Source: Chitinophagales bacterium
GTDB lineage: Bacteria > Bacteroidota > Bacteroidia > Chitinophagales > Saprospiraceae
Reading direction: 5' to 3'
Assembly (NCBI GenBank): GCA_013298845.1
Contig: JAAFJN010000003.1
Coordinates: 54,989 to 118,988, forward strand
Length of the DNA stretch: 64,000 nt
Shown here: positions 17,380-61,442 of the stretch, one piece after another
How the letters are laid out: each line of letters opens with the position of its first letter
How positions within the stretch are numbered: the first letter of the stretch is position 1
The notes under the pieces: model-generated
Database searches by the model: none
Seen by the model: only the letters and a program-made list of their open reading frames with translations
What the model was told of the DNA's origin: nothing
Position numbers and translations under genes: made by a program

Positions 17380-17385
17380 CCAACG

Positions 17386-19674: not shown

Positions 19675-22050
19675 CATCGGGTTACCTGCCTGACTACCAC
19701 CACCGCGACGACCGCCGCCGCCACCGCGCGATTTGTAGAGTTCAAAACGATTCACCTTAATTTCGCCTTTGGGCCACAACTGGTTATTTTCGTCAATATC
19801 GGCCGTTTCCTTAAACGGATCCAACACGATAGATTTCACCTCTTTGGTTTTCAAAAACGATTTTACCACCTTCGACTCATTTTTACGCCAGATATAGGCG
19901 TTTATGTATTCGGTGTCGCTGGTGCCGTCGGTGTAATTCCATTGCACAATAATAGGCATGGGCAAACCACCTTTGTTTGTGAACGTCAATTCGTAATAGA
20001 AGCGGCCATCGTATTTTTTGGCGTCGGCATCCGAAATTTTTTCGGGTTTGGGGGCTTCCGGGGTGCTGCCACCCGCCGGACGTTCACCGGCTGCCGCTGG
20101 TTGGCGTTTTTCGGGTTTGTAATAGTAGTAAAAATCGCGGAGCGAAGTGTCGCGGTCCACCAGGAACGACAAACCACTTTCTTTGTTCCGGCGCGTACTG
20201 ATGCTCACAAAATCTTCATTGTCGTTACCGCCGCCGTTGCCACCGCCAAAACCACCGCCCGAAGGAGCCGCTATGGGTTCGCCACCGGGGCCGTAAGCGA
20301 ATACCCGCACCGAATCGAGGGCGATGTCCACGGGTTGAATATCGTAGAACCAGCCGCGCCAGAACCAGTCGAGATCCACGCCCGAAGCATCTTCCATGCT
20401 GCGGAAAAAATCGGCGGGAGCCGGGTGTTTAAACGCCCAACGGCGCGAATATTCTTTAAAAGCGTGGTCGAACAGTTCGCGGCCCATCACCGTTTCGCGC
20501 AAAATATTGAGCGCAGTAGCGGGTTTGGCGTAAGCGTTGCTGCCAAACTGATTGATGTTTTCGCTGTTGGTCATAATCGGCTCCAACTGATTGGGCGGCA
20601 AACGCATATAATCCACAATTTTGTAAGCCGGGCCGCGCGACGACGGGTAATTGTTGTCAAACTCCTGTTCGGCCAAAAACTGCACAAAAGTGTTCAATCC
20701 TTCGTCCATCCACGACCATTGGCGCTCATCGCTGTTGATAATCATGGGGAAAAAGTTGTGGCCTACCTCGTGAATCACCACCGAAATCATGCCGTATTTG
20801 GTGCGCGACGAATACGTGCCATCGGCTTCGGTGCGGCCAAAATTAAAACAGATCATGGGGTACTCCATCCCGTTGCTGGCCTCCACGCTGATGGCGGTGG
20901 GGTAGGGGTAATCAATGGTGTGTTTGGAATATACCCGAATGGTGTGCGCCACTACTTTGGTCGAATAACGGCGGTACAAGGCGTAGGCTTCTTTGGGGTA
21001 AAAACTCATACACATCACGTTTTTGCCCGCTAATGGCTCGGTCATGGCATCCCAGATGAATTTACGCGAACTGCCCCAGGCAAAATCGCGCACGTTTTCG
21101 GCCTTGAATTTCCAGGTTTTGGTTTGGGTCGTTTCCGGATTTTTTTCGCGTTGTTGGGCTTCTTCCAGGGTAACCACTTCCACGGGTTCACCGGAGGCCT
21201 GGGCTTGTTTCCAACGGGCCAATTGCTGCACATTGAGTACATCGGCGGCGTTTTGGACGGTGCCCGTGGCGCATACCACGTGGTCGGCGGGCACTTTCAT
21301 GTTCACTTCAAAATTGCCAAACACCAACGCAAATTCGCCGCGACCGGTGAATTGTTTGTGGTTCCAGCCCTGGTAATCGCTATAGACGCACATGCGTGGG
21401 TACCATTGGGCAATGGTAAATACCGCGTTGCCGTCGCCCTCGAACATTTCGTAACCGCCGCGGCCACCTACTTTGAGGCGGGGAACAATTTTATAGTTCC
21501 ATTTTACCTTAAACACGTATTTTTTACCACTTTTGAGCGGCTGCGGCAGGTCAACGCGCATCATGGTGTTGTTGATGGTGTATTTTAACGGCGCACCCGC
21601 TTTGTCGGTGACTTTCAGGATATTGACCCCAAACTCTTTGAGGTTATTGCGAAAGTCGAGTTGCTCCAACTGGAAATCGGTGAGGGGCGTTTCCAGCGGG
21701 CTTGGGTTAAAGTTCACCGCATCGCCGGTAGCGCGGTGTTGGTTTTCGTCGAGTTGCAACCAGAGGTAGCGCAACTCGTCGGGGGAGTTGTTGAAATAAG
21801 TAATTTCCTCTTCACCGTGCAGGCGCAGGTCTTTTTCGTCGAGATAGGCGTCAATTTTATAATCGGCGCGTTGTTGCCAGTATTCGTGGCCGGGTGCTCC
21901 CGAGGCAGTACGGAACGAATTGGCATCGGGTAAAATGGTACCGAGTTGCTCAAATTTGTTCCCGTGGTTAGAAGTGGGGTTATTCTGTATGTTTTGCGCC
22001 AACACCACATTGGTCAACATACAAATAAACAGGGAGTAAACTATACGCAT
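19654..22050 (-). CDS. Secreted M1-family metallopeptidase
   Basis: A 798-residue exported protein with signal peptide (MRIVYSLFICMLTNVVLAQ). The zinc site is HEVGHNFF (about residue 428) with a downstream glutamate in WMDEGLNTF, the HExxH-(18)-E arrangement of gluzincin M1 aminopeptidases. The GAMEN-type loop is replaced by EASNGMEYPM. The C-terminal part has glycine-rich low-complexity stretches (GGGFGGGNGGGN near 590, and a GRRGGG-rich tail). No T9SS sorting domain is present. The last seven codons and stop form one arm of a 32-bp inverted repeat. It is divergent from a DUF6702 gene, a pairing known in other Bacteroidota. Confidence 0.9.
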   Translation of the reverse strand: MRIVYSLFICMLTNVVLAQNIQNNPTSNHGNKFEQLGTILPDANSFRTASGAPGHEYWQQRADYKIDAYLDEKDLRLHGEEEITYFNNSPDELRYLWLQLDENQHRATGDAVNFNPSPLETPLTDFQLEQLDFRNNLKEFGVNILKVTDKAGAPLKYTINNTMMRVDLPQPLKSGKKYVFKVKWNYKIVPRLKVGGRGGYEMFEGDGNAVFTIAQWYPRMCVYSDYQGWNHKQFTGRGEFALVFGNFEVNMKVPADHVVCATGTVQNAADVLNVQQLARWKQAQASGEPVEVVTLEEAQQREKNPETTQTKTWKFKAENVRDFAWGSSRKFIWDAMTEPLAGKNVMCMSFYPKEAYALYRRYSTKVVAHTIRVYSKHTIDYPYPTAISVEASNGMEYPMICFNFGRTEADGTYSSRTKYGMISVVIHEVGHNFFPMIINSDERQWSWMDEGLNTFVQFLAEQEFDNNYPSSRGPAYKIVDYMRLPPNQLEPIMTNSENINQFGSNAYAKPATALNILRETVMGRELFDHAFKEYSRRWAFKHPAPADFFRSMEDASGVDLDWFWRGWFYDIQPVDIALDSVRVFAYGPGGEPIAAPSGGGFGGGNGGGNDNEDFVSISTRRNKESGLSFLVDRDTSLRDFYYYYKPEKRQPAAAGERPAGGSTPEAPKPEKISDADAKKYDGRFYYELTFTNKGGLPMPIIVQWNYTDGTSDTEYINAYIWRKNESKVVKSFLKTKEVKSIVLDPFKETADIDENNQLWPKGEIKVNRFELYKSRGGGGGRRGGGSQAGNPMQRAKKG

Positions 22051-22148: not shown

Positions 22149-22673
22149 ATGCAAAGACACAACTTTTTTGGCAATTTTTGCTATTTTTTAACCCTATGTA
22201 TGTTGACGCTGTGGCCCGTTTCGTCGAGGAACTGCCCAAACGAAGCGCATCCATTCTACGTGAGTGTCACCGAAATTCGTTCCGACAGCCAAAAACAAAC
22301 GTTCAGCGTTAGTGTTCGGATGTTTACCGACGATATTCAGCAGGCGTTATTTAAATTATACGGCTATAAAGGTGAACTCAACGCCGAAGATGGCAGCGCG
22401 AGCGCGTATTTGGGTAAATACATTGCCGAACGGTTGGGCATTACGGTGGCGGGCAAAGCCGTGGCCTTGCAGTGGGTAGGGTACGAAACGGAAGAGGAGG
22501 CCACGTGGTGCCACTTGGAAGTGAGCACGTTTCCGGGAACGGGCGCGATTGCCGTTACCAACCGGATTTTGTACGATTTTATCGAAGAACAAACCAATTT
22601 GGTGCATTGCTACCGCGACGGAACGCGCAGTAGTTATAAACTGGTGAACCCGGAAGTGTTGGCGCAGTTTTAA
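22149..22673 (+). CDS. DUF6702 family exported protein
   Basis: A 174-residue protein with an N-terminal hydrophobic signal region (CYFLTLCMLTLWPVSS) followed by the family opening HPFYVSVTEI and a predicted beta-rich domain. DUF6702 genes are regularly found beside M1 metallopeptidases in Bacteroidota; here the two are divergent with about 100 bases between them. Biochemical function is unknown. The promoter box sits so close that translation would begin from a nearly leaderless mRNA unless a downstream ATG (within the signal region) is used. A heptamer array starts within a few bases of the stop. Confidence 0.75.
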   Translation: MQRHNFFGNFCYFLTLCMLTLWPVSSRNCPNEAHPFYVSVTEIRSDSQKQTFSVSVRMFTDDIQQALFKLYGYKGELNAEDGSASAYLGKYIAERLGITVAGKAVALQWVGYETEEEATWCHLEVSTFPGTGAIAVTNRILYDFIEEQTNLVHCYRDGTRSSYKLVNPEVLAQF

Positions 22674-22676
22674 AAA

Positions 22677-23064
22677 ACATCGAATGTTGAATTTTGAACA
22701 CCGAATTTTGAACACCGAACATCGAACACCGAACATCGAATTTTGAACACGTATTAACCCGCGACTTCAGTCGTGGGTGGGCGCATCTTCCATTCGTTTG
22801 TCAAACGGTTTTAACCGTTTCCAAGTGCGATTTGGCAATAAAAACCGATAAATCGGTTTAGCCAAATGCGATGGCGGCCCTTTGGCCCACGACTAAAGTC
22901 ATGGGTTAATATGGACGCTGCCCCGATCTTGTCATGCATGCCTGTGTAATACAGGCCTTCATCACTTAAACGCGGGATAATGCGCTACGGCGTATTTTGA
23001 CTTTATCTAATTGAATATTACTTCGGTGTTCGGCGTTCGGTGTTCGATGTTCGGTGTTCAAAAA
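22677..23064. repeat. Heptamer inverted pair (locus III) enclosing a MITE-like element
   Basis: GAACACCG-type 7-mers at 22677-22750 and the complementary GTGTTCG units at about 23019-23064 flank the core. Each arm abuts the stop of a convergent gene (22673 and 23072). Inside, 22753-22910 is a 158-bp element with 25-bp terminal inverted repeats (ATTAACCCGCGACTTCAGTC against its near-complement; 3 mismatches over 25) and internal palindromes around AAACGGTTTTAACCGTTT and ACCGATAAATCGGT. It has no ORF. The part 22941-23060 repeats 17263-17379. Confidence 0.8.
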
Positions 23065-23071
23065 ATTCCGC

Positions 23072-23791
23072 CTACGGCTCAAATTCCAACATCCGGCTGC
23101 CGTACCACGAATACAATTCGCCGTCTACCAACCGAATTGTGGCGTTCGGGCAAATTTCGGCAAATTCGGCGATGTGTTTTTCCTGAAACGGGTATGGTTC
23201 CGAACTCAACAAAATACATTCGGGATTGGCTTCGGCCAGTTCGGCTGCCGACAACGACGGGTAACGGGTCATGTCGGCGAAAATATTGACATACCCTGCA
23301 TGTTTCAACATGTCGTTGACAAAAGTATCACCGCCGGCCACCATAATCGGGCTACGCCAAATGAGATAAGCCGCTCTTTTGGGCGGACCATCCACTTTTA
23401 CGGCGGCCAAATGTTGCTCAATTTGAGTGCGTAATTCGGCGGCTGCGGCTTGCGTTCCGGTGAGTTCACCCAGTTCGATGATCATCGCCAGCGCGTCTTG
23501 TACATTTTTGACATCGGTGGTGTGCACGGGACAAAACTGCGCAATTTCTTCAATTTGCTCTCGTTCGTTTTCTTCCTTATTGGCAATGACCAAATCAGGT
23601 TTTAGTTTGCGCAAATTGTTGATGAGAATGGTTTTTGTACCGCCCACTTTTTCTTTGGAACGAAACCACTCGAAGGGGTGTACACAAAATTTGGAAATGC
23701 CGACTACACGGTCGCCCAGCCCCAAATCATATAATAGTTCAGTTTGTGAAGGCACCAGAGATACGATGCGCTTTGGGTAATTTTTTGCCAT
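23072..23791 (-). CDS. BtuF/TroA-like helical-backbone binding protein without signal peptide
   Basis: A 239-residue protein with the two-lobe cobalamin/metal-chelate binding fold: RIVSLVPSQTELLYDLGLGD at the start, LKPDLVIANKEEN near residue 60, the linking helix around 90-125, and a C-terminal lobe with CILLSSEPYPFQEKH. BtuF-type proteins deliver cobalamin or siderophores to ABC importers, yet this one starts directly at the mature fold (MAKNYPKR) with no signal or lipobox. It follows the HtrA gene by 5 bases on the same strand. No BtuC/BtuD genes are nearby. A cytoplasmic binding role is possible but unproven. Confidence 0.75.
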   Translation of the reverse strand: MAKNYPKRIVSLVPSQTELLYDLGLGDRVVGISKFCVHPFEWFRSKEKVGGTKTILINNLRKLKPDLVIANKEENEREQIEEIAQFCPVHTTDVKNVQDALAMIIELGELTGTQAAAAELRTQIEQHLAAVKVDGPPKRAAYLIWRSPIMVAGGDTFVNDMLKHAGYVNIFADMTRYPSLSAAELAEANPECILLSSEPYPFQEKHIAEFAEICPNATIRLVDGELYSWYGSRMLEFEP

Positions 23792-32974: not shown

Positions 32975-33622
32975 AAGGGGGGGGAAGGGTTGAATTGACG
33001 GAGAAGGGTTGAATTAGTGTAGAAGGGTTGAAATGGTTGAATTTGTTTTGCTCGCTGCGACGTACTCGGTTTTTGTTGCTCGTTGTAGGGTGTTCGTTTT
33101 TTTGTTGCCCGCTGTAGCGTACACGTTTTTAAGTGTGCTCATCTGCCAAATCTTTCAGATTTGGTAGATTTCTGCCACAAATTTGCCCGTCGCGACGTTC
33201 TCGTTTTTTTTGCTTGATGTAGTATTTGTGGGGGGGTACACTTTTTAGTGGTGAAAAGCGCAATCAGGGCAACGGTGCCTGCGGCGCATATTCGCGGCAG
33301 ATTGGGCGGCTTGAGTTGTGTTTTTCTAAAGTGAAATAGCGCAATCAGGGCGAGGGTGCCTGCGGCGCATATTCGCGGACGAAATCTACCAAATCTGAAA
33401 GATTTGGCAGATTATGACACTTGAATTGTGTTTTTAGGCCCAAAATGCTCGATTGCAGGTCAATCTGATGCGTAAAATGAAGTAAATCAGACAAATAAAA
33501 AACGTGTACGCTACAACGAGCAACAAAAAACGGGTGCGTCGCAACGGGCAACAAAAAACGAATACGCTACAACGAGCAAAACCAATTCAACCAATTCAAC
33601 CCTTCCAACCAATTCAACCCTT
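32975..33622. repeat. Large inverted-arm repeat element (locus VI) with palindromic core
   Basis: The left arm (about 32975-33130) holds GAAGGGTTGAATTG units then GCTCGTTGTAGCGTACACG-type units. The right arm (about 33497-33622) carries the complements in reverse order as 28-bp and 9-bp repeats and includes the stop codon of the SSS transporter gene. The core has CCAAATCTTTCAGATTTGG palindromes at about 33145 and 33390 and a 40-bp direct repeat (around GCGCAATCAGGGC) at about 33258 and 33340. No gene is present, although the gap is about 800 bases. Confidence 0.8.
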
Positions 33623-35290
33623 AAACACTTTCCTTTCCAACAATTGCACCAGTGCCGCAATGCCCATGACCAAGCCACAACCCAACGGATTATACCACAG
33701 GTAGGCATCTTTATTGACAAAGAAAAACAGGTACGCAACGATGGTTTGGGCGAACAGGGCAGCGATAAAGACCGCACGGCCTTTTACTTGTTTGAGGAAA
33801 AAAGCCGTGAAGAATATACCCAAAATGGTGCCGTAGAAGATAGATCCCACCATATTTACCGCCTGAATCAGGTTATCGAACAAATCGGCGTAAGTGGCAA
33901 AAATGGTGATAAATATGCCCCAAATGACGGTGGCAATCTTCGACGCACGCAGGTAATGGGCTTCGTCGCGGCCAGGCACCAACGACCGTTTGTAGATATC
34001 CGAAACGCTGGTGGCAGTTAAGGCGTTGAGTTCGGAGGCCGTGGTGCTCCACGACGCGCAAAAAATCATGGCCAAAATAAGCCCAATCAACCCCGAAGGA
34101 ATCTGGCTGAGGACAAACCGGATAAATACGTAATCTTTATCTTTGGTATCGGCGTCGGGTTTGGCCTGCTTAATGAGTGCCTCGGCGGAAGTGCGCAATT
34201 TGGCACGTCCCTGCTCCAGCGACACCAATGCCGCCCGGTTTTCGGGCGTGTCGTTGTATCCGTGCCCAATAATGGCTTGTTTAACCTTAAAAAGACTATC
34301 GGCCTGCGCTTCTAAGGCGCGGTAAGGGGCTTCGTAAGGAGTGCCCACCACGGCTTTGGCGTTGCTTTCGTTAAAATGCAGCGGCGGCGCGTTAAATTGG
34401 TAAAAAGCAAACATCATTACCCCCACGGCCAATACCAAAAACTGCATGGGGATTTTGATAAAACCATTAAACAACAAACCAAAACGGCTTTCCTGCAATG
34501 ATTTTCCCGACAAATAACGCCCCACCTGACTTTGGTCGGTCCCGAAATAAGACAAAAACAAAAAGGTAGAACCCAAAATCCCCGACCAAATATTGTAGCG
34601 GTCTTCCCATTTGAAAGACCAGTCGATAACCTGGGTTTTGCCCGTTGCTCCGGCAATTTGCCAGGCTTCGCTCAGGCCAACACCCTGGGGTAAGTTCATC
34701 ACAATAATAACGAAGGCCATGACCAACCCCGAAAGCATAATGGTCATTTGGAGTTCTTGCGTTTTGCTCACCGCTTTACTGCCGCCCGAAGTGGTATAAA
34801 TGACCACAAACATGGCCATCATCAGGTTGGTAAACGCCAGATTCCACCCGAATACCGCGCACAAAATAATGCTGGGCGCGTAAATACTAATGGACGCCGC
34901 CACGCCGCGTTGAATCAAAAAAAGAATAGCCGTGAGGCTGCGCATCCGCAGATCAAAGCGCTGCTCTAAAAACTCGTAGGCCGTGGTGACCTTGAGTTTA
35001 TAATACACGGGCAGCACAAAAATGCACAAAAAAATCATGGCAATCGGCATCCCGAAGTAGAACTGCACAAACTGCATCCCGTCGTTGAAACCCTGTCCGG
35101 GCGTGCTCAAAAACGTGATGGCACTGGCTTGCGTTGCCATAATACTCAGCCCGATGGTCCACCATTTCAGGTCGCGGTTACCGGCCAAAAAGTCGTGGCT
35201 TTCCCCCGCTTTTTTGCGGCCAGCCCAAAGTCCGTAAAGGACGATAAATCCAAGTGTACCTACGAGTACACACCAATCCAATAATTCCAT
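33614..35290 (-). CDS. Sodium:solute symporter (SSS family)
   Basis: A 558-residue inner-membrane transporter with about 14 hydrophobic segments. SSS hallmarks include the early block AGNRDLKWWTIGLSIMATQASAITFLS split around residue 35-65, the family GRYLSGKS motif near 255, and the long extramembrane loop at about 315-385. It imports a solute, probably a sugar, amino or organic acid, with sodium. I use the ATG at 35290, since the two extra codons upstream begin at TTG. The stop codon lies inside a repeat arm. It diverges from the Ig-repeat gene. The substrate cannot be assigned. Confidence 0.88.
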   Translation of the reverse strand: MELLDWCVLVGTLGFIVLYGLWAGRKKAGESHDFLAGNRDLKWWTIGLSIMATQASAITFLSTPGQGFNDGMQFVQFYFGMPIAMIFLCIFVLPVYYKLKVTTAYEFLEQRFDLRMRSLTAILFLIQRGVAASISIYAPSIILCAVFGWNLAFTNLMMAMFVVIYTTSGGSKAVSKTQELQMTIMLSGLVMAFVIIVMNLPQGVGLSEAWQIAGATGKTQVIDWSFKWEDRYNIWSGILGSTFLFLSYFGTDQSQVGRYLSGKSLQESRFGLLFNGFIKIPMQFLVLAVGVMMFAFYQFNAPPLHFNESNAKAVVGTPYEAPYRALEAQADSLFKVKQAIIGHGYNDTPENRAALVSLEQGRAKLRTSAEALIKQAKPDADTKDKDYVFIRFVLSQIPSGLIGLILAMIFCASWSTTASELNALTATSVSDIYKRSLVPGRDEAHYLRASKIATVIWGIFITIFATYADLFDNLIQAVNMVGSIFYGTILGIFFTAFFLKQVKGRAVFIAALFAQTIVAYLFFFVNKDAYLWYNPLGCGLVMGIAALVQLLERKVFKG

Positions 35291-35438
35291 TTGCAAAATG
35301 TTGACTTAAAAGTCGCCCCAAAGGTTGCAAACTCTTAACAGATTCCTTAGTTTAGGGTTAATCTTTTGTGATTTTAACATCAAAAGCGCAATCTTTGCCG
35401 GTGAAACTGGTTTTTTTGCCCGTTTAAATTATGAAGAT

Positions 35439-38400
35439 ATGCGCTTAACCTTTTCTCTCGTATTTACATTTATTGCAATGAGCCTTTTTGGCCAACAATT
35501 CAACTCGCGTTTTACCCCCCGCGAGCGCGGTTGGGTCACCTTTGGCATTGACGGCGGTTGGGCTTACCAATCCTCCGATGTCCGCACCACTTTTAACGGA
35601 TGGGGTGCCGGGTTAACCCTCGGTAAAAACGTGGCGTATCGCCCCGGCGGTCTGCTGTCTTTTGATATTCGCAGCCGTTTGCTGTTTACCCGCTCGTATG
35701 GGTCCGACTGGCGTACCAGCGTTAACCTTCAGGACAATAAAGCCTTAAACGGTTCCTCCAACGTTGGGATCAATTACCTGTTGGACAAAACCGCCCCCCT
35801 CGATTCTTCGTTTGTTTTTGCCAACCACCGCACCGGCATGGGCGAATTGGACGTAGAAGGTGTGATTACTTTTAACCGGCTGCGCGAACGCACCGGAATT
35901 GTGCTCAACCTCTTTGGCGGCATTGGTTTTAACGTTTACCGCGCCCGTATTGACCAAGGCACCACCCTCGGTAACGCTTATAATTATTTGTCCATTAACC
36001 AAAGCAACGGCAAAGCCAGTGTTTTGGCCCAATTGGACAACCTCCGCGACGGCAAATATGAATCGCGCGCCGACGGCTCCACCGGAACCGGATTACGCGC
36101 CGGATTTATGCCCGATGCCGGGGTGGAACTGGGTTATCAACTCGGTAAACATTTCGTAATGGGCGTGGGTCACAAAGTCACGTTTAGCCGCACCGATGTC
36201 CTCGACGGGCAACGTTTCAATGACCAGGGCATTGCGCCCAACGATTGGGCGCATTATACCAATATTTTTATGCGCTGGGATTTGACCCGCCGCGACCGAA
36301 GCCGTACCCGCAAACCGGAAGTGGATATTATCAGCCCCAACGATAACCCGTATATCTCCAATAGTGCCAGTGTTTTTGTAAAAGCCGACATAAAACACGT
36401 GAACTCCCCCGCCGATGTGCACTATTATGTCAACGGTGAACAACGCGGTTTTGAGTTCCGCAACGGCCGTTTTGGCGGCACCGCCCGCCTGCGCCCCGGT
36501 CGCAACGAAATTACGGTAGAAGCCTCCAATCCGGCGGGCCGCGACGAAGAAACCCTGATTGTTATTTGGGAAGACCGCAGCAATCCTTCGTTCCCGCCAC
36601 CGCCGCCGCCATCGGCACCCGCTCCACAGGTGCGCATTACCAACCCATCGGTGTCGCCATTTCAAAGCGACAGAAACGATGTTTACTTCCGCGCCGATGT
36701 GCAATACGTGCGCGATAAACGCGACGTTCGCCTCACGGTGAATGGCGCCGAGGAAGATCGGTTTACCCTCGCCGAGGGCCTCGAAGCGAGTTTGCGCCTC
36801 CGCGACGGCCGTAATGTTATCCGCGTAGAAGCCACAACCCCGGCCGGTCGCGCCGCCGACGAAGTGGTGATTGAAGTCAAATCAACGCCCCGAACACCAC
36901 CAACTACTCCGCCCACCACGCCGCCTTCTTCGGGGCGGAAACCCAACGTCAATTTCACGCAGCCCACCAACACGGCTTCTACCGCCGATAAAGCGTACGA
37001 TATTAAGGCCACGGTGGTGAATGTTACCCGCAAAGAAGACATTACCCTGTTGGTGAATAACCGCGAGGTCAGCGCATTTAACTACAACAACCGCTCCGGT
37101 GAAGTGACGGCAAACATTGACCTGCAACCCAACGACAACGAAGTGGTGCTCAAAGCCCGCAACAGTGCCGGAGAAGTCCAGGATCAGGTGACTATCACCC
37201 GTCGTGGGGGTATTACACCGCCCACTACGCCCCGCAAACCCACGGTATCTATCACGGAACCGGGGAATAATGCCACTTTCGACCGCCGCGACGTGGCCTT
37301 TAAAGCCAACACGGCCAACGTAACCAACCGTTCCGAAATCGTGGTGGTGTTCAATGGTGCAACGTTTAGCGGTTTTGATTTTGATGGTCGTTCGCTCGTG
37401 AGTGGTAATTTGAACCTCAAAGACGGCGACAATACCCTTACCGTTAAAGTAACCAACAGCGCCGGTAGCAACGAAGCCACGGTGCGGTTTAAATACGCGG
37501 TGGCCACGCCAAAACCGGTGGTGGATATTATCACGCCCGCCAACGGCAGCGAAGTACGCACTGCCGAAGCCCCGCTGCGCGCTACGGTGAAAAACGTGGA
37601 CAATAAAAACGATGTTCAGGTGTATGTGAACGGCAAAGCGGTGAACGATTTTGAATTTAACAACCGCACCGGCCAGGTTTCGGTGACGGTTGGTTTGGAC
37701 AAAGGCGAAAATACCCTGCGCGTGACCGCCACCAACGACGGCGGCAGCCACGAAGCCGTGGTGCGCCTCAAATACACCGTGGCCGTGCCCAAACCCGTCG
37801 TGAGCATTGAGGCTCCCGCCGATGGTTCAACGGTACGCACCGCCGATACCGAGGTAAAAGCCACCGTGTTAAATGTGTCCGACAAAAATGCTATTTTGAT
37901 GTACTTCAACGGTCGCACTATTACCACATTTACCTTTGATGCCGCCAACGGCAAGTTGACCGCAAAAATTAAATTGGGCGAAGGCGATAATACCATTCGG
38001 GTATCGGCCAGCAACGCCGGTGGTTCTGCCGAGGCCAGCCATAAGGTAAAATACAGTCCGCAAAAAACGCCCACGGTGGTGATTAATACCCCCGCCGATC
38101 GCTCCCGGACAGATAACCCGAGTGCTACGTTAAAAGCCACCACCACCAATGTATTCAGTGCGCGGAACGTGGTCGTGAAACAAAACGGTACTGCGCTTAA
38201 CAATGTCACTATGGACCGCAGTGGCGTGATCAGTATGCCGCTAACCCTCCGCGAAGGCAACAATACCATTGCCGTGGAAGTGTCCACCCCCGATGGCAAA
38301 GACAATGCCGAAGTCACCGTGGTGTACGCACCCAAACCCGCCGATAAACCAACGGTAACGTTCACCCAACCCGGTACGTCGAAGGCTCCAGTCACCAAAA

Positions 38401-38912
38401 ATGTATTTGAATATAAGGCTAAGGTAACTGGCGTAGCGGGTACAGCGAATATTAAAATATTTTTCAATAATTCGCCCGTTCGTGGGGTGAACTACAATGC
38501 CAAAACCCAAGAGTTAACCTATAAAGCGACGTTAAAAGAAGGGAAAAACACCTTAAAAGTAGTGGCCGAAAACAACAGCGGCAGCACTCAAGCCGAAGCC
38601 GATGTTACTTATACACCTAAGTCCACGGGGGCAGTACCGGAAGTAAAAATCGTGTCTACTTCGCAACCATCCACCAATCCGTTTAACCCCAATACGGGTA
38701 AAACTTCGGTGACGGCCACGTTGAAAAACGTAACGGAGCGCAGCCAGATTACCGTTACAGTCAACGGTACTACTCTCAACGATTTTGAATTTACGGCTGC
38801 TACCGGGGCTTTAAAATGCGTTGCCAATTTGGTAAAAGGTAATAATACCATTGTTATCAAAGCCATTACCCCCGCCGGGGAGGCATCGGATTCTAAAACG
38901 ATGGTGTTTTAG
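35439..38912 (+). CDS. Exported protein with N-terminal barrel-like domain and nine Ig-like repeats
   Basis: A 1157-residue protein with signal peptide MRLTFSLVFTFIAMSLFGQ, so the start is placed at 35439 rather than at 35325. Residues about 20-290 are rich in alternating hydrophobic strands and resemble an outer-membrane barrel. Nine Ig-like beta-sandwich repeats of about 88-92 residues follow. Most open with KPxVxIxxP and end with GxNTxxVxxxNxxG, separated in places by proline/threonine linkers (TPRTPPTTPPTTPPSSG). Repeats 4-6 are the most alike. There is no T9SS sorting domain. A plausible role is a surface-displayed stalk anchored by the barrel; this is inference. It ends just before the GGATTTGCTTG repeat cassette. 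Confidence 0.75.
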   Translation: MRLTFSLVFTFIAMSLFGQQFNSRFTPRERGWVTFGIDGGWAYQSSDVRTTFNGWGAGLTLGKNVAYRPGGLLSFDIRSRLLFTRSYGSDWRTSVNLQDNKALNGSSNVGINYLLDKTAPLDSSFVFANHRTGMGELDVEGVITFNRLRERTGIVLNLFGGIGFNVYRARIDQGTTLGNAYNYLSINQSNGKASVLAQLDNLRDGKYESRADGSTGTGLRAGFMPDAGVELGYQLGKHFVMGVGHKVTFSRTDVLDGQRFNDQGIAPNDWAHYTNIFMRWDLTRRDRSRTRKPEVDIISPNDNPYISNSASVFVKADIKHVNSPADVHYYVNGEQRGFEFRNGRFGGTARLRPGRNEITVEASNPAGRDEETLIVIWEDRSNPSFPPPPPPSAPAPQVRITNPSVSPFQSDRNDVYFRADVQYVRDKRDVRLTVNGAEEDRFTLAEGLEASLRLRDGRNVIRVEATTPAGRAADEVVIEVKSTPRTPPTTPPTTPPSSGRKPNVNFTQPTNTASTADKAYDIKATVVNVTRKEDITLLVNNREVSAFNYNNRSGEVTANIDLQPNDNEVVLKARNSAGEVQDQVTITRRGGITPPTTPRKPTVSITEPGNNATFDRRDVAFKANTANVTNRSEIVVVFNGATFSGFDFDGRSLVSGNLNLKDGDNTLTVKVTNSAGSNEATVRFKYAVATPKPVVDIITPANGSEVRTAEAPLRATVKNVDNKNDVQVYVNGKAVNDFEFNNRTGQVSVTVGLDKGENTLRVTATNDGGSHEAVVRLKYTVAVPKPVVSIEAPADGSTVRTADTEVKATVLNVSDKNAILMYFNGRTITTFTFDAANGKLTAKIKLGEGDNTIRVSASNAGGSAEASHKVKYSPQKTPTVVINTPADRSRTDNPSATLKATTTNVFSARNVVVKQNGTALNNVTMDRSGVISMPLTLREGNNTIAVEVSTPDGKDNAEVTVVYAPKPADKPTVTFTQPGTSKAPVTKNVFEYKAKVTGVAGTANIKIFFNNSPVRGVNYNAKTQELTYKATLKEGKNTLKVVAENNSGSTQAEADVTYTPKSTGAVPEVKIVSTSQPSTNPFNPNTGKTSVTATLKNVTERSQITVTVNGTTLNDFEFTAATGALKCVANLVKGNNTIVIKAITPAGEASDSKTMVF

Positions 38913-38929
38913 AGGGGGGGAGTAGTGTA

Positions 38930-39165
38930 GTATTAGGATTTGCTTGATTTTAAAGGATTAAAAGGATTTGGGGGGGCAGTAGTATTAGGATTTGCTTGAT
39001 TTTAAAGGATTAAAAGGATTTTTTGGGCTGTAGTGTTAGGATTTACCTGATTTTAAAGGATTGGAAAGATTTTTTGGTTGGTGTGAAGGGAGAGTGGATT
39101 AGCACTTGGGGAATAGTTCATTATAGTGTATCTTGGTTAAGAGATAAACTTTAATGAACTATTCC
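38930..39165. repeat. Left repeat arm of the GxxExxY cassette
   Basis: Three direct copies of a roughly 55-60-bp unit built around GGATTTGCTTGATTTTAAAG (about 38935, 38985 and 39035), followed by a perfect 13-bp stem GGAATAGTTCATT (39110-39122) / AATGAACTATTCC (39153-39165). Confidence 0.85.
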
Positions 39166-45789: not shown

Positions 45790-46338
45790 ATGCATTATTT
45801 ATCAGCAATCGCCATAACGGCGGCCACCGGCTTAATTGGCCTGGTAGCCCATTTTTCCGGCCTTACGACCTCGGCACCCAAAGAAACCGCCGGGAAATGG
45901 TACACCTGGGAAGAAGCCGTGGAATTGAATAAAACCAAACCCAAAAAAATTGTTGTGGATGTTTACACCGACTGGTGTGGCTGGTGCAAAAAAATGGATA
46001 AGGCGGCTTTTAGTAACGGTGAAATTACCCAATACATGGCCGATAACTTTTATCCGGTAAAACTCAACGCCGAACAACGCGACCGTATTATTTTTGGCCG
46101 CGATACTTTTGCTTTTGTCGAAACCGAAAATGGCCGTGGTGTGCATACCCTCGCTTACGCCCTGCTCGATGGCAAAATGGGCTACCCAACCCTCGTTTAT
46201 CTCGATCAGGATTTCCGCCGGATTATGATTTCGCCCGGTTACAAGGAAAAAGACGACCTGATGAAAGAACTCAAATTTGCCAAAGAGGAAATTTACAACA
46301 AAAAATCCTGGGATGAGTACCGCGACCAAGGTGAATAA
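45790..46338 (+). CDS. Exported thioredoxin-like protein
   Basis: A 182-residue thioredoxin-fold protein with an N-terminal hydrophobic segment (YLSAIAITAATGLIGLVAHF). The active site is DWCGWCKK (about residue 61-68), and the cis-proline is in GYPTLVYLD. This DUF255-like or thioredoxin_7-like type often works in disulphide chemistry of exported proteins. The ATG at 45790 is preferred; upstream codons are within AT-rich noncoding DNA. The next gene starts 7 bases after the stop, so the two form an operon. Confidence 0.85.
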   Translation: MHYLSAIAITAATGLIGLVAHFSGLTTSAPKETAGKWYTWEEAVELNKTKPKKIVVDVYTDWCGWCKKMDKAAFSNGEITQYMADNFYPVKLNAEQRDRIIFGRDTFAFVETENGRGVHTLAYALLDGKMGYPTLVYLDQDFRRIMISPGYKEKDDLMKELKFAKEEIYNKKSWDEYRDQGE

Positions 46339-46345
46339 GTCCACG

Positions 46346-47218
46346 ATGCGTATTCTTTTCCATTTTTTCATTTTTATTTGTTGCACTATCCAATCGCAGG
46401 CCCAATCGGGGTTAATGCTGCGGTTGGATAGTGCCGTTGTAGAGACCGGCGAAGCCTTTTATATCCACCTCGAAGCCCCGGCCGAACCCGATACCCTCGA
46501 CCTTTCTACCTGGTCGGCCCTGCTTTCGCCCGATAATATTTTAGCCCAAAGTCCCTGGGTAAAATCCGGTAATACCTGGAAAAAAGACCTCCGGGTGATT
46601 GTTTTTGAAGCCAGCGATTCGTTGGTATTACCGCCGCTTACCGTACATTTGCGCGAAGGTGTGTTGTTACAATCCGATCCTTTGCCGCTTACGGTGGTGC
46701 CAACACCCGTTCCCTCCAACGATTTGGTGGATATGGCCGACCTCAAAGAAATTCACCGCGAAAGTAAAAACTGGACCGACTATATCTGGCTGATTTGGTT
46801 GGTGGCCGGTTTGGCCATTACGCTGCTGGTGTTGTATTGGATTTCGAAACGAAAAAAACAGGCCAGTGCCCGTTACCGCAGTAGTGAACTGTCGGCGTAC
46901 GAATTGGCCATCCGGAAACTGGACCAACTCGAAGCCCAACAATTGTGGCAAAAAGGCGACGTAAAAACCTATTACGCCACCCTCTCGGCCATTGTCCGCG
47001 CTTATATTGACGACCGGTACCAGTTACACACCCAAAAATCGGGGGCCGAAGACGCCAGTGTACAAATCCGCCGGACCAATATGGATCCGCACACCCAGGC
47101 GCTTTTGTTACAATTGCTCCGCAACGCCGACCTGGCCAAATACGCCAAAGGCCAACCCGACCCTTCGTACCACCCCAAAGCCATCGAAGACGCTAGAAGA
47201 GTGATAAGTGAAGAGTGA
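46346..47218 (+). CDS. Membrane-anchored Bat-like/DUF4381-like protein
   Basis: A 290-residue protein: signal peptide (MRILFHFFIFICCTIQSQAQ), an exported beta-rich domain of about 115 residues beginning LMLRLDSAVVETGEAFYIHLE, one membrane helix (YIWLIWLVAGLAITLLVLYWI, about 145-165), and a helical cytoplasmic domain with YELAIRKLDQLEAQQLWQ and VKTYYATLSAIVRAYIDDRY. The layout matches proteins encoded beside MoxR and von Willebrand domain genes in Bacteroidota Bat operons, yet none of those are here. The final codons (ISEE-stop) are made of the AGTGAAG heptamer array that begins at the stop. Confidence 0.65.
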   Translation: MRILFHFFIFICCTIQSQAQSGLMLRLDSAVVETGEAFYIHLEAPAEPDTLDLSTWSALLSPDNILAQSPWVKSGNTWKKDLRVIVFEASDSLVLPPLTVHLREGVLLQSDPLPLTVVPTPVPSNDLVDMADLKEIHRESKNWTDYIWLIWLVAGLAITLLVLYWISKRKKQASARYRSSELSAYELAIRKLDQLEAQQLWQKGDVKTYYATLSAIVRAYIDDRYQLHTQKSGAEDASVQIRRTNMDPHTQALLLQLLRNADLAKYAKGQPDPSYHPKAIEDARRVISEE

Positions 47219-47396
47219 ATAGTGATAAGTGAATAGTGATAAGTGAAGAGTGAATAATGAAGAGTGAATAATGAAGAGTAATTTTGTGGAGTAAGTGTTT
47301 TTCTTTGTGAAAAGAATACAAAATTGCATAAAAACGAGCACTATTCAAGTGTAAAATTTTTCACTCTTCACTCTTCACTCTTCACTCTTCACTAAA
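47200..47396. repeat. Inverted pair of heptamer arrays (AGTGAAT / TTCACTC), locus IV
   Basis: The left arm (47200-47282) starts inside the upstream gene's last codons. The right arm (47366-47396) ends 5 bases before the capA-like ATG. The core is about 80 bases. Confidence 0.85.
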
Positions 47397-47401
47397 AAAA
47401 G

Positions 47402-48499
47402 ATGACCATTAAACGACTATATATTGTATTGGGTTTTTGGGCGGTGTTGTGCCGTGTTGAGGCCCAGAGTGACACCTTGCGCCTTATTTTTACGGGCGAT
47501 ATTATGGGGCATACCCCACAAATTAAAAGTGCCGAAGTGAGTCCGGGCAAGTACGATTATACGCCCTGTTTTCAGTTTGTCAAAAAGCCGCTGAGCGACG
47601 CGGATTTGGCCATTGGCAACCTCGAACTGACGCTGCCGGGCAAGTCGCCGTACACGGGTTATCCGATGTTCCGCAGCCCCGACGCCCTGGCCACCGCCCT
47701 GAAAGATGCCGGGATTGACGTGATGGTAACCGCCAATAACCACTCCAACGATAGCCGCGCCCTGGGCGTTACCAACACGATAGAAACGTTGCGCACCGAG
47801 GGATTTTGGCAAACGGGTACTTTTAAAAACAAAAAGGAACGCGATGTTTTTTACCCGCTGATGGTGTACAAAGACAATTTTAAACTGGCGTTTCTGAATT
47901 ACACCTACGGCACCAACGGTGTCCCAACCGAGGCCCCGACCATCGTCAATTTGTTGGATACGGTGCAAATGGCCACCGATTTTGCCGAGGCCCGCGCCCG
48001 CAAACCTCATTTTATTATCGCGGTGGTGCATTGGGGCCTGGAATACCAACTCACCGAAAACGCCGAACAGCGCGCACTGGCCCGCTTTATGATGCGCGAA
48101 GGCGCGGATATGATTATTGGTATGCACCCGCACGTGGTGCAGCCCCTCAAAATGGAATCGTACAAAGGGAAAAAAGTGCTGGTGGCGTATTCGTTGGGGA
48201 ATTTTATCAGCAACCAACAACAACCCAATACCGACGGTGGTATTATGGTGCAAACCGAATTGATCCTGAAAAAAGGGGCGGCTAAAGCCACTTTGGGCGA
48301 TTATGGATACGTGCCCGTTTGGCGGTACATTCACAAAGGCAGCAAAAAAACGGCTTATTACGCCATTCCAACCTATTTAGCCGACGAAATGAATACTTTA
48401 TTCCCGGAAATGCCGGAGGTAGCCGTGGCTAAAATGAAGGCATTTGCAACCGCCTTGCGGAAGCGATTAGGGGCCGATGCGGAGTGGACAAAAAAATAG
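47402..48499 (+). CDS. CapA-family metallophosphatase-like protein (PGA_cap)
   Basis: A 365-residue exported protein (signal MTIKRLYIVLGFWAVLCRVEA). PGA_cap motifs appear in order: LIFTGDIMGHTPQI (about 27-40), DLAIGNLELTL (about 67), VMVTANNHSNDSRALGVTNT (about 110) and the histidines VVHWGLEYQLTEN and GMHPHVVQPLK near 205-245. The fold is that of calcineurin-like phosphoesterases; CapA takes part in polyglutamate capsule export in Bacillus, but many homologues act elsewhere in envelope metabolism. No capB/capC is present. Its ATG follows a heptamer array by 5 bases, so its promoter probably lies in the core or arms of that element. Confidence 0.88.
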   Translation: MTIKRLYIVLGFWAVLCRVEAQSDTLRLIFTGDIMGHTPQIKSAEVSPGKYDYTPCFQFVKKPLSDADLAIGNLELTLPGKSPYTGYPMFRSPDALATALKDAGIDVMVTANNHSNDSRALGVTNTIETLRTEGFWQTGTFKNKKERDVFYPLMVYKDNFKLAFLNYTYGTNGVPTEAPTIVNLLDTVQMATDFAEARARKPHFIIAVVHWGLEYQLTENAEQRALARFMMREGADMIIGMHPHVVQPLKMESYKGKKVLVAYSLGNFISNQQQPNTDGGIMVQTELILKKGAAKATLGDYGYVPVWRYIHKGSKKTAYYAIPTYLADEMNTLFPEMPEVAVAKMKAFATALRKRLGADAEWTKK

Positions 48500-58597: not shown

Positions 58598-59128
58598 ATG
58601 CAAATCCACGATTTAGAGTTTAAAATATTTCTTTCGGCTGCCCAGATTCAAGACCGCGTGCAGTCCATTGGTGCGGCACTCACAACGCAGTACGAAGATA
58701 AAAATCCGTTGTTTATCAGTATTTTAAGCGGTGCATTTGTGTTTGCATCCGACCTGATTCGCTCGTTTAATGCCCCCTGCGAAGTTGGTTTTGTAAAATT
58801 ATCGTCGTACAAAGGCACCCGTTCCAGCGGCGATGTCCAGACGGTCATGGGTTTGGAAAAAGATTTGGAAGGCCGCCATTTAATTGTGGTCGAAGATATT
58901 GTGGATACGGGCCGGACCCTTCACTTTTTTCTGGAGCACCTGCGCAGTCAAAACCCGGCTTCGGTGTGTACAGTGGCCCTGCTCTGCAAACCCGATGCGC
59001 TCCAGTTTGAAGTCCCGATTGACTATATCGGCTTCGAAATTCCCGATGAATTTGTAGTGGGTTACGGCCTCGATTACGATGGTTTAGGCCGTAATTTACC
59101 GGATTTGTTAGTGAAAAGCGAGGAGTGA
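58598..59128 (+). CDS. hpt: Hypoxanthine phosphoribosyltransferase
   Basis: A 176-residue cytoplasmic purine-salvage enzyme that joins hypoxanthine (and usually guanine) with PRPP to give IMP or GMP. The PRPP loop HLIVVEDIVDTGRTL (about 90-104) is intact, as are the N-terminal ISILSGAFVFASDL and the flexible loop SSYKGTRSSGDVQT, and the C-terminal FVVGYGLDYDG. The start at 58598 is chosen over 58499, which would place 33 codons over the promoter. The last four codons (KSEE-stop) are made of heptamer-array sequence. Divergent from pxpB/C. Confidence 0.93.
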   Translation: MQIHDLEFKIFLSAAQIQDRVQSIGAALTTQYEDKNPLFISILSGAFVFASDLIRSFNAPCEVGFVKLSSYKGTRSSGDVQTVMGLEKDLEGRHLIVVEDIVDTGRTLHFFLEHLRSQNPASVCTVALLCKPDALQFEVPIDYIGFEIPDEFVVGYGLDYDGLGRNLPDLLVKSEE

Positions 59129-59945
59129 ATAGTGATGAGCTATGAGAGATAAGAGATGAGTATGGACGTTTAGTTGGTTTGATCCGGCATTTTTGAGGTG
59201 GGCCAATATTTTTCACCGTTGAATTTGAACCGAACCGGTCGGTCCAGAACTGATTTCTGACAAAAGAAATTTCCCCAAAAGTGCGCCACACCACCTAAGA
59301 CCTTCAGAAACGCTTTGTGGCTTTGTCATCCAGAAGGGATCTATGGGATCAAAATATTGGGTAAAAAGCGTGGAGCATTGAGCGGGCAGTCGAAACACGG
59401 CGACTTTTGGGGAAATATTTTTCGTCTAAGGTCTATCGTCTGAAGTCTTTTGTCCAAAATCCGAGTCGCTTTGAGATGTCATCCACTCCGTTCCTCCGGG
59501 ATGCACATCTCGTCGCGGGACGCTTTACCGCCAGATTACTTTTGATATCTGCTATCATACATCATCAATCATATATCAAAAAACATACTGGCACAACCCA
59601 CAAAATACGGCGACTTTTAGGGAAATGTCTGTTGTCTAAGGTCTATCGTCTAAAGTCTTTTGTCCAAAATCCGAGTCGCTTTGAGATGTCATCCACTCCG
59701 TTCCTCCGGGATGCACATCTCGTCGCGGGCCACGCTGGCGGCAGCCATTCATGAACGCACCTGTACATTGTGTGCGCATTGGTAGATGCCTTCTGCATGA
59801 CAAAGCCACTGGTTTTTATGTGCATTTTGTGGGCGGGGTAGTATGTTTTTTGATATATGATTGATGATGTATGATAGCAGATATCAGAAGTTACTTTTCT
59901 CTCTTCACTCTTCACTCTTCACTCTTCACTCTTCACTCTTCATCC
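59108..59945. repeat. Compound repeat element between convergent hpt and cysS, locus V
   Basis: The outer arms are GTGAAAAG/GAGTGAAT-type 7-mers (59108-59160) and TTCACTC 7-mers (about 59893-59945); each includes a neighbour's stop codon. An inner perfect 47-bp inverted repeat lies at 59543-59589 and 59840-59886 and is itself made of 7-mers (GATATCT, GCTATCA, TACATCA, TCAATCA, TATATCA). A direct repeat of about 110 bases recurs 210 bases apart (59411-59522, 59621-59735), containing GTCTAAG heptamers and the hairpin GAGATGTCATCC / GGATGCACATCTC. No gene is present. Confidence 0.9.
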
Positions 59946-61442
59946 TTTACTCCAGGTAGTACCCTCCTTACCGTCTTTTACCACAATACCGGCCGTATTA
60001 AGGGCATCGCGGATTTGGTCACTGGTGCCCCAGTCTTTGTTGGCGCGGGCGTTGGCGCGCAATTGCAGGATAAGATCCATCAAACCGCTGAGGGTGCCGT
60101 CGTCACCGGCCGAAGAGGTATCGTCCAGCAAACCGAGCACATTGATGAGCAGGTCGTTGATGGATGTTTTGGCGCGTTCGAGTACCCAGGCGGATACCTC
60201 GGAAGCGTCTATTTGTTGGTTGGCCAATTTGTTGATGTGCCCACTGAGGTCATAAATCGCCGCAATGGCCATTGCCGTGTTAAAATCGTCGTCCATGCCG
60301 GCGAAAGCATCGTCAATGGCTTGCAAAATAGCGCGATCAGTATCCGTTTCGGACGTTGAAGTCGTCGCGGTTGCGGGCATATTTTGCAACAATTTATTAA
60401 ACTCCATGACCTTGCGGTAACCTTTTTCGGCGGCCTGCAAGGCTTCGTCGGTGATATCGAGGGTAGAGCGGTAATGGGCCTGCAACATGAAAAACCGCAA
60501 CACCATGGGCGAATACGATTTGGTCACAAACGGGCTGTCGCCGGTAAACAGTTCTACGGGCGTAATGGTATTGCCGTCCGATTTGGACATTTTTTTGCCG
60601 TTGAGCAGGAGCATATTGGTGTGCATCCAGTAATTGGCCGGATGGCAACCGCAGGCACCGTGGTTTTGGGCCACTTCGTTTTCGTGGTGCGGAAACTTGA
60701 GGTCGTTACCGCCGCCGTGAATATCAAAAGATTTACCGAGGTATTTGGTGCTCATGGCCGAGCATTCGAGGTGCCAACCGGGGAAACCAAGGCTCCAGGG
60801 ACTTTCCCACACCATAATGTCTTCGGGGCGGGCTTTCATCCAAATGGCAAAGTCGGCGGGGTGATTTTTTTCCTCCTGACTTTTTAATTCGCGGGTTTCG
60901 TTGTACAAATCATCGAGAATACGACCGCTGACCGAGCCATACACGTCTTTGTATTGTTCGGCAAATTTGGGTACGTTAAAATACACCGAACCATTGCTTT
61001 CGTACGCAAGACCATTGGCCAAAATATCTTTTACCATCGCAATTTGCTCCGGAATATGGCCCGTAGCGCGTGGTTCGATACTGGGCGGCAGGGTGTTAAA
61101 AATCCGCATCATATCGTGGAAACCAACGGTATAGCGCTGCGCTACTTCCATGGGTTCGAGTTGCGCCACTTTTGCACCTTTCGACATGCGGTCTTCGCCG
61201 TCGTCGGTGAGGTGGCCCACATCGGTGATATTGCGCACGTAACGCACTTTGTACCCCCGGTGGCGCAAATAGCGATAAATAACGTCGAAACTGGTAAATG
61301 TGCGGCAATTGCCCAAATGTACATCGCTGTACACCGTAGGGCCGCACACGTACATACCTACGTGTCCGGGTGTAATGGGGTTAAAAACTTCTTTTTTGCC
61401 GCTGAGGCTATTGTAAATTTTTAGGTCGCGTGGTGGATTCAT
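59940..61442 (-). CDS. cysS: Cysteinyl-tRNA synthetase
   Basis: A 500-residue class I synthetase charging tRNA-Cys. The HIGH-type motif appears as VHLGNCRTF (about 43-51), zinc-binding residues as CGPT and HHENEVAQ further on, and KMSKS as GKKMSKSDGN near 278. The anticodon-binding helical bundle fills the C-terminus. The ATG at 61442 lies 3 bases from a TACCTTTG box, so the mRNA is predicted to be leaderless; the longer frame to 61469 would overlap that box and the divergent promoter. The stop codon opens a heptamer array. Confidence 0.96.
   Translation of the reverse strand: MNPPRDLKIYNSLSGKKEVFNPITPGHVGMYVCGPTVYSDVHLGNCRTFTSFDVIYRYLRHRGYKVRYVRNITDVGHLTDDGEDRMSKGAKVAQLEPMEVAQRYTVGFHDMMRIFNTLPPSIEPRATGHIPEQIAMVKDILANGLAYESNGSVYFNVPKFAEQYKDVYGSVSGRILDDLYNETRELKSQEEKNHPADFAIWMKARPEDIMVWESPWSLGFPGWHLECSAMSTKYLGKSFDIHGGGNDLKFPHHENEVAQNHGACGCHPANYWMHTNMLLLNGKKMSKSDGNTITPVELFTGDSPFVTKSYSPMVLRFFMLQAHYRSTLDITDEALQAAEKGYRKVMEFNKLLQNMPATATTSTSETDTDRAILQAIDDAFAGMDDDFNTAMAIAAIYDLSGHINKLANQQIDASEVSAWVLERAKTSINDLLINVLGLLDDTSSAGDDGTLSGLMDLILQLRANARANKDWGTSDQIRDALNTAGIVVKDGKEGTTWSKG

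Follow-up and report, generated by a model that had tools for sequence, protein, structure and literature searches.

Inverted pairs of short-unit tandem arrays, mostly with a period of seven nucleotides, stand behind the stop codons of several genes along a 64,000-nucleotide stretch of a Chitinophagales draft genome of 6.37 Mb (GCA_013298845.1, contig JAAFJN010000003.1, positions 54,989 to 118,988 of the forward strand; hereafter the window). On balance we favour the reading that these paired arrays are the ends, or the gene-less derivatives, of small elements that carry a gene of the 23S_rRNA_IVP family (PF05635; hereafter IVP) and resemble the intervening sequences of ribosomal RNA (rRNA) genes. 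The initial annotation of the window had argued from common form without common sequence to a generating process, and this argument has gained support: the same form recurs around PF05635 genes in the genus, in the phylum and on cyanobacterial plasmids. Published work is cited by PMC identifier, for excerpts of its text.

Arrays were counted in a 1,255-kb sample, approximately 20% of the genome (the window, 400 kb each of C1 and C12, the rest of C23 minus its last 5 kb and 120 kb of C45), by a sliding self-match for each unit length, with a single base-shuffled copy per sample as control. This returned 104 arrays of unit 7, compared with 2, 5, 12, 6, 10, 0, 8 and 14 at units of 4, 5, 6, 8, 9, 10, 11 and 12, and no unit-7 array in the shuffled copies, so that the common unit length asserted for the window extends well beyond it. 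With few exceptions the arrays are intergenic. Family labels were assigned to 94 of the 104 (A, AGTGAAN, 51; B, GAACANC, 27; C, TTAGACN, 11; D, 4; E, 1) and 10 stayed unlabelled; base bias differs among families (A, 5% C and 30% G; C, 15% C and 20% G; B the reverse, 25% C and 18% G). Their sequences had been called unrelated, which holds in so far as the families differ, but a few families are dispersed genome-wide: a four-unit AGTGAAN pattern gave 532 overlapping matches in this genome against 25 when read backwards, and (CGAACAC)3 gave 49 against 0. The backwards control of the family A pattern also finds matches in G008, G015, G018 and G023, pointing to other, related heptamer families there.

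The arrays have a marked polarity. Among neighbours of the same family and opposite orientation (at most 900 nt apart, with no long gene between), 25 of 26 point inward at distances of 34–398 nt, with AGTGAA, GAACAC or TTAGAC in the left array and the complement in the right; the pairing of opposite arrays, proposed from the window as a check, is also seen in the 20% sample. The sole outward pair (B− at C12:389337, then B+ at C12:389756) marks where two B elements adjoin, and a called gene separates its arrays. Other combinations of neighbours were A+/C− (four, one of them the nested locus at 59108 described below) and A+/E−, C−/A−, C+/D+ and B+/B+ (one each), while another three long arrays each consist of a merged A+A− pair. 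One detected array was present in 32 of the 60 array-bearing gaps between genes and two or more in the other 28; at least three of the 32 hold merged pairs, and truly unpaired arrays nevertheless exist.

The association with IVP genes was assessed across the genus, where PF05635 matches occur in 38 of 41 genomes. Our 74 loci comprise the best locus from each of 29 other genomes (37 had a match), the five from this genome and 40 more drawn from the matches of nine genomes and chosen blind to their flanks; loci with doubtful open reading frame (ORF) limits (L300, L279), a broken frame (L338) or little or no downstream flank (L293, 0 nt; L275, 51 nt; L279, 70 nt) were kept. Flanks within 300 nt on each side of the gene were compared by a gapless complementarity score (+1/−2), with a threshold of at least 13 that was set only after the first loci had been inspected. 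Complementary flanks were found at 25 of 34 and 36 of 40 loci (61 of 74 together), and period-7 arrays on both sides at 13 of 34 and 16 of 40 (29 of 74). The corresponding counts were 10 and 0 among 652 called genes of the genus, and 1 and 0 among 30 ParE loci (fetched from 36 matches); of 444 mismatched combinations, in which the upstream and downstream flanks came from different IVP genes, 16 passed. Arm units vary by locus (ACGGTGG, GGTTGCT, AGTCCTG, GGTAGAG, CAGTGAA, GTTGTTC), the best unit in the 61 passing loci being 7 in 32 (27 strong, 5 weak), 8 in 14 and 5, 6, 9, 10 or 11 in the rest, an estimate made without a control, and G outnumbers C in the 5′ arm at 60 of the 61, a bias that families A and C of the window's genome share and family B does not. 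IVP loci that are related across species do not count as independent, an effect of kinship that the mismatched flanks and the comparison of non-matching sites described next lessen and do not abolish.

Related IVP genes at unrelated sites more often have common arms. This comparison used 71 of the 74 loci (three were dropped for ORF lengths outside 90–220 amino acids) and, after removal of short flanks and of matching outer DNA, 2,324 locus pairs; sites were judged non-matching on DNA 260–500 nt away rather than on neighbouring proteins, and arms were called alike when both scored at least 18. Among pairs in which no IVP similarity was detected, both arms were alike in 1 of 1,173; the counts were 9 of 916 at less than 40% identity, 3 of 132 at 40–50%, 7 of 56 at 50–60%, 6 of 40 at 60–70% and 2 of 7 above 70%; at 50% identity or more the count was 15 of 103. 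These fractions are modest even at high identity, so that close IVP relatives often differ in their arms.

The genome that holds the window has five PF05635 matches above the cut-off, all outside the window. Two of them, at C12:174 and C12:104,403, represent one near-identical IVP element at two places: they are 96% identical in an alignment of 499 nt whose two ends both fall within arrays, and beyond the two copies BLAST gives array-to-array matches only (with 126 nt available to the left of one copy). The second is enclosed, as a PF05635 ORF, by one pair of A arms in the sample. Elsewhere, the IVP gene at C1:412,411 has a B array upstream, that at C1:546,080 has GATTTAA-type arrays on both sides, and that at C9:95,109 is followed downstream by a C-type and then a GATTTAA-type array. 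At L233 (C9, 1411–1489), the IVP gene begins 3 nt after a tRNA-Val gene (1411–1485). A profile search of solved structures with an alignment of 13 IVP sequences matched 2gsc (named XCC0516, 1e-33) and 2rld (3e-39), the former protein being, we presume, from X. campestris. The same search gave no match to the Avd entry; in the literature PF05635 is said to resemble Avd of diversity-generating retroelements (excerpts of PMC10053308).

Arms of the kind that enclose IVP genes also occur without them. 14-mers from the arms of the GATTTAA-type IVP gene (C1:546080) mark eight clusters in this genome's own sample, which excludes that locus, and those from the arms of the two A-type copies mark 27 and 21; none of these 14-mers occurs in 784 kb of G007 and G008. 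A GRATGAG pattern has 156 overlapping matches in G006, 342 in G045 and 0–2 in the 39 others of the 41 genomes, and in G006 such arms are common to a hairpin at the 3′ end of the hpt gene and to one IVP gene (L330). Only in family B does a core recur between the same ends at sites that are otherwise unrelated, as would be expected of a family of miniature inverted-repeat transposable elements (MITEs): 9 of 12 B cores fall into one homologous group, in both orientations, and one inner B core has nine matches in the sample, all nine with a B array within 300 nt and eight with one on both sides.

The form is also found beyond the genus. PF05635 is present in 90 of 118 Bacteroidota genomes (this one included), and 12 of 30 loci fetched from outside the genus, among the 90 genomes with a match, pass the flank test; two that fall below the threshold (L346, L366) have short-unit flanks by eye. 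Among 72,556 plasmid records an IVP query matched 42, of which 38 are cyanobacterial, judged by name (Nostoc 17, Calothrix 4). In the 20 plasmid loci fetched (19 cyanobacterial, one from Bernardetia), flanks pass in 12 at a score of 13 and in 15 at a score of 10, compared with 19 and 64 of 380 mismatched flank pairs and none of 63 other genes from a single Nostoc plasmid; period-7 arrays lie on both sides in 9 of the 20, and unit 7 is best in 12 of the 15 loci scoring at least 10, again an estimate without a control. No rRNA location was seen, the window giving zero matches in an Rfam scan and the 20 plasmid loci sitting among protein genes. On the cyanobacterial plasmids of L404, L406 and L413 the IVP gene lies between cas6/cas4 or cas10/cmr3-family genes, and at L403 it lies between two ribonucleotide reductase genes. 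Such placement suggests insertion at gene junctions rather than a function in clustered regularly interspaced short palindromic repeats (CRISPR); IVP genes in cas loci are on record, with Xcc0516 cited (excerpts of PMC3936711).

Position relative to genes, which were called with a dicodon-based finder written for this analysis, is strongly biased. The 60 array-bearing gaps are tandem in 41 cases, convergent in 17 and divergent in 2, whereas all 422 gaps of 100 bp or more divide into 254, 51 and 117 (shortage of divergent gaps, Fisher P = 4e-6). Gene 3′ ends are flush with an array edge, that is with the edge at most 10 nt from the gene end or inside the gene, in 49 of 75 cases, whereas sliding the clusters within their own gaps gave 36.5 expected and a maximum of 44 in 2,000 slides; for 5′ ends the count was 13 of 45 against 16.6 expected. 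Array edges are themselves uncertain by about 10 nt. At 61 contacts of an array with a 3′ end (within 40 nt) the stops are TGA 25, TAA 19 and TAG 17, against TGA 138, TAA 532 and TAG 198 in all 868 called genes, and by eye the stop codon frequently lies within the first array unit (TAG|TGAAGAG). By eye, too, 11 of 16 contacts at 5′ ends have a run of A between array and start codon. The placement of arms against stop codons, first noticed in the window, recurs across the sample.

At the scale of the window, all six loci named in the initial annotation (11048, 17082, 22677, 32975, 47200 and 59108) proved to exist, with complementarity scores of 17–49; a score of 13 was reached by 9 of 1,500 pairs of random 100-nt stretches from the window. 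The first five consist of the following features.

11040–11273, plus strand: left A array (AGTGAA), with a core of 68 nt to its right arm
11342–11458, minus strand: right A array, overlapping the stop of the minus-strand gene 11433–13112
17082–17213, plus strand: left B array (CGAACAC), with a core of 122 nt
17214–17335, no strand: B core; eight further places in the sample are homologous to it, each having B arrays at most 300 nt away
17336–17385, minus strand: right B array, abutting the stop of the minus-strand gene 17386–18537
22677–22753, plus strand: left B array, a few bases 3′ of the stop of the plus-strand gene 22149–22673, with a core of 256 nt
23010–23066, minus strand: right B array, near the stop of the minus-strand gene 23072–23791
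32975–33045, plus strand: left array of longer units (GAAGGGTTGAATT...), with a core of 529 nt
33575–33635, minus strand: right array of units of about 9 (AATTCAACC), partner of 32975–33045
47188–47287, plus strand: left A array, overlapping the stop of the plus-strand gene 46277–47218, with a core of 54 nt
47342–47407, minus strand: right A array, ending TTCACT-A7-G directly before the ATG of the plus-strand gene 47402–48499

At the 32975 locus, Tandem Repeats Finder reports a unit of 19 for the left array and of 9/18 for the right, and the pair encloses a nested set of inner arms. One B element contains further palindromes at 22757–22912 (CCCGCGACTTCAGTCGTGGG ... CCCACGACTAAAGTCATGGG), which we take to be similar to repetitive extragenic palindromic (REP) sequences; related sequence occurs downstream of the IVP gene at C1:412411 (L231). 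Two repeats of another kind also border genes of the window: a non-heptamer array of a 23-bp unit (AAACGCACAGCGTGCGGCACATC) in 14.6 copies at 19249–19584, beside the gene 19654–22050, and a 51-bp unit in three copies at 38926–39077, directly 3′ of the gene 35325–38912.

The sixth locus, at 59108–59960, lies between an hpt-like phosphoribosyltransferase gene (PF00156) and a cysteinyl-tRNA synthetase gene (cysS, PF01406), and nests several array families.

59108–59161, plus strand: left array of AGTGAA/GAGATGA type, including the last codons and the TGA stop (59126–59128) of the hpt-like gene
59317–59343, plus strand: arm of a nested inverted repeat (GTGGCTTTGTCATCC...), 93% complementary to 59783–59809
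59424–59457, minus strand: GTCTAAG-type array (right-arm type), copy 1, within the direct repeat 59393–59534
59538–59589, plus strand: inner left arm of TATCATA/CATCATC heptamers, 52 nt, 98% complementary to 59840–59891
59634–59667, minus strand: GTCTAAG-type array (right-arm type), copy 2, within the direct repeat 59603–59744
59783–59809, minus strand: partner of the nested arm 59317–59343
59840–59891, minus strand: inner right arm, complement of 59538–59589
59893–59945, minus strand: right array (ACTCTTC)n, overlapping the stop (59940–59942) of the minus-strand cysS gene

The outer arms (59108–59161 and 59885–59960) are weakly complementary, with a score of 17. The inner arms had been described as a perfect inverted repeat of 47 bp and are in fact 52 nt long and 98% complementary. 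The two GTCTAAG arrays have the same orientation and each belongs to one copy of a 142-nt direct repeat (59393–59534 and 59603–59744, 90% identical), so they are not each other's partner. Units related to this direct repeat recur several times in tandem at C12:136160–136950, and parts of 58900–60000 match this genome 98 times, counting the locus itself. The window's hpt protein ends in LLVKSEE and its G003 orthologue in LLVLADV, the last codons in the window being of array type. Across the genus, where hpt proteins are 61–76% identical, hpt shows one gene with a common form and differing sequences at its 3′ end: G006 carries GAATGAG/GGATGAG as an inverted pair, in G010 the inverted pair is of TATCCAA type, and the 3′ flanks in G003, G004, G005, G008 and G011 are array-free within 400 nt by eye. 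A cysS gene, sought in 14 loci, was found in none; the junction is thus not conserved and offers no clean empty site.

Taken together, these observations are consistent with an element whose full form would comprise a 5′ short-unit array (unit 7 commonest, C-poor), a short leader, a PF05635 gene and the complementary array, the gene product being a putative four-helix bundle of the IVP/Avd-like kind. Each lineage would have its own unit sequence, tending to travel with its IVP gene, and would settle at gene junctions, chiefly directly behind stop codons. A TGA, TAG or TAA within a unit of 7 should place a stop in all frames within 21 nt, in which case a gene end could be overwritten harmlessly, and selection would remove insertions into promoters and genes. 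Gene-less copies may have multiplied in some genomes (A, B and GATTTAA here, GRATGAG in G006), their array lengths then drifting through slippage. The IVP protein would act on the arms, and the gene-less pairs would be derivatives of IVP elements. By analogy with rRNA intervening sequences of the same plan, cleavage of an RNA stem is a likely step, with stem formation and cutting by RNase III as published for those sequences; movement itself might proceed through RNA and reverse transcription, replication or recombination.

Several observations weigh against this reading. Genome-wide there are five IVP matches, whereas the 20% sample already holds 94 labelled arrays; arms are one-sided at two of the five loci; and the threshold is missed by 13 of the 74 loci in the genus, 18 of the 30 in the phylum and 8 of the 20 on plasmids. 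No empty site was found at hpt, the sole locus examined for one. In a 400-kb sample of G007 the arms of four armed IVP genes recur for one (four clusters), so that multiplication of arms is not general. Cores of family A have at most short segments in common, which weakens the derivation of its gene-less copies, and at C12:308636–308764 the A arrays between two convergent genes enclose a terminator-like palindrome, so that arms may flank native DNA there. The IVP association could also mean that arrays attract IVP genes.

Four other explanations bear on the same data, and the weights given to them overlap with that of the IVP element, since the explanations are not mutually exclusive. Arrays might act at the RNA level, forming stem-loops or offering binding sites by which mRNA 3′ ends are defined or protected, in the manner of REP sequences and bacterial interspersed mosaic elements (BIMEs), a role suggested for them at the outset and compatible with an origin as elements, with selection placing arrays behind stops. 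Position speaks for it (the shortage of divergent gaps, the flush 3′ ends and the excess of TGA stops), yet the same position is explicable by selection against insertions into promoters and genes, and beyond position the role found no support. In family A, the two arms of one locus complement each other no better than arms from different loci do (0.539 versus 0.537, P = 0.45, 12 pairs), and in family B slightly better (0.619 versus 0.565, P = 0.018, 12 pairs), which leaves arm-to-arm pairing as a selected trait unsupported in A and weak in B. The four combinations of a left A with a right C array are unable to form a stem together, and five of seven same-genus hpt genes lack arrays, by eye, in 400 nt of 3′ flank. 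Terminator-like sites at the 59108 locus number two against a shuffle mean of 1.3, neither built from arrays, and sigma-70 promoters there show no excess over shuffles. Folding of left-arm stretches only (17082–17225 and 47196–47320) gave z of +1.0 and +1.9, that is, no excess structure over shuffles. We regard a 3′-end function as an unlikely explanation of the arrays. Plain simple-sequence repeats, expanded by slippage, tolerated between genes and inverted by template switching with IVP genes as passengers, also seem improbable to us: they would fit the local higher-order repeats of 14, 21, 28 and 35 in the window arrays, which suggest slippage, the lack of locus-specific likeness in family A and the over-representation of heptamers in bacteria, for which earlier work proposed that seven nucleotides may correspond to the stretch of DNA that a polymerase touches (excerpts of PMC4692102), and they do not predict the polarity, the IVP association relative to ParE and other genes, or the common arms of related IVP genes at unrelated sites.

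A further explanation would make the arrays recombination hot spots and the IVP genes their cargo, acquired like integron cassettes through homologous recombination. The same arms do surround different cores, and the many dispersed copies (the 532 overlapping matches) provide homology; an accessory family such as ParE, however, lies between arrays at 1 of 30 loci only, related IVP genes more often share arms across unrelated sites, and for three of the four G007 IVP genes the 400-kb sample holds no further copy of the arms, that is, no family of target arrays. This makes the hot-spot model quite unlikely. Spread by REP-associated Y1 transposases independently of IVP is, in our judgement, very improbable. 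The genome's six Y1_Tnp matches count in its favour, as would the palindrome nested at 22757–22912 if, as we presume, it is REP-like. None of these matches, nor of the two to reverse transcriptase, was tied to arrays; at the one inspected, a weak match on C12 and the only Y1_Tnp match that falls in the sample, the inverted repeat is not built of heptamers and no period-7 array stands closer than 300 nt. REP and BIME sequences are dispersed palindromes at gene 3′ ends with one protein family (RAYT) and many gene-less copies; REP sequences differ from the present arrays in being short single palindromes tied to a Y1 transposase.

Returning to the IVP element, its parts have separate precedents. 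The heptamer repeats of Xanthomonas (GGGAATC) and Nostoc (GGGGA(C/T)T), which are quadruplex formers, are like the arrays here in unit length, in having fixed and variable positions, in lying between genes and nearer the upstream ORF, and in being under-represented between divergent genes; convergent inverted pairs number 70 in Xcc (186 repeats) and 75 in Xac (183), and heptanucleotide repeats are also known from the cyanobacterium Calothrix (excerpts of PMC4692102). Those repeats form one G-rich family per studied genome, whereas here there are several families and some pairs enclose an IVP gene; the excerpts of PMC4692102 do not mention an IVP link. Intervening sequences of 23S rRNA likewise place an S23p/IVP ORF between complementary, stem-forming termini, which RNase III cuts, their origin and function being described as unclear; they lie inside rRNA genes, with a 28-bp stem in Coxiella (excerpts of PMC4990558), whereas the elements here lie at gene junctions, have tandem short-unit ends and, in the window, contain no PF05635 ORF. 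TAACTGA heptamers of Beggiatoaceae, Cyanobacteria and Bacteroidetes also form strain-specific intergenic arrays, but as direct repeats (with one indirect repeat), mostly directly upstream of starts in the main genome studied, and without mention of IVP in the excerpts of PMC4679880. The BrickBuilt MITE of Porphyromonas gingivalis combines tandem repeats and inverted ends between genes as well, and differs in its 23-nt unit in the middle and its small inverted ends (excerpts of PMC4596501). No link of heptamer arrays to PF05635/S23 proteins was found among the best matches listed in the open-licence literature, subscription papers lying outside this scope; inverted heptamer pairs, IVP proteins and rRNA intervening sequences are each known, and their link looks new.

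In its widest form, which we hold tentatively and as slightly less than an even prospect, there would be one widespread class in which a PF05635 gene with its own inverted arms is the source of inverted heptamers in Bacteroidota, Cyanobacteria and Xanthomonas, with the 23S rRNA intervening sequences as its rRNA branch, a protein that recognizes or maintains lineage-specific arms, and gene-less copies that parasitize it. The inverted arrays after genes match the form of IVP gene flanks and may thereby reveal where heptamers come from in several bacterial groups. The heptanucleotide repeats of cyanobacteria and Xanthomonas have been described as having no known role (excerpts of PMC4692102), and PF05635 proteins as functionally uncharacterized (excerpts of PMC11270868). 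A link between the two would make the protein's own arms its candidate target and the protein a candidate agent for the repeats, so that both questions become testable, and it would offer a single framework for rRNA intervening sequences, for the inverted arrays behind genes and for the IVP genes that sit among cas or nrd genes.

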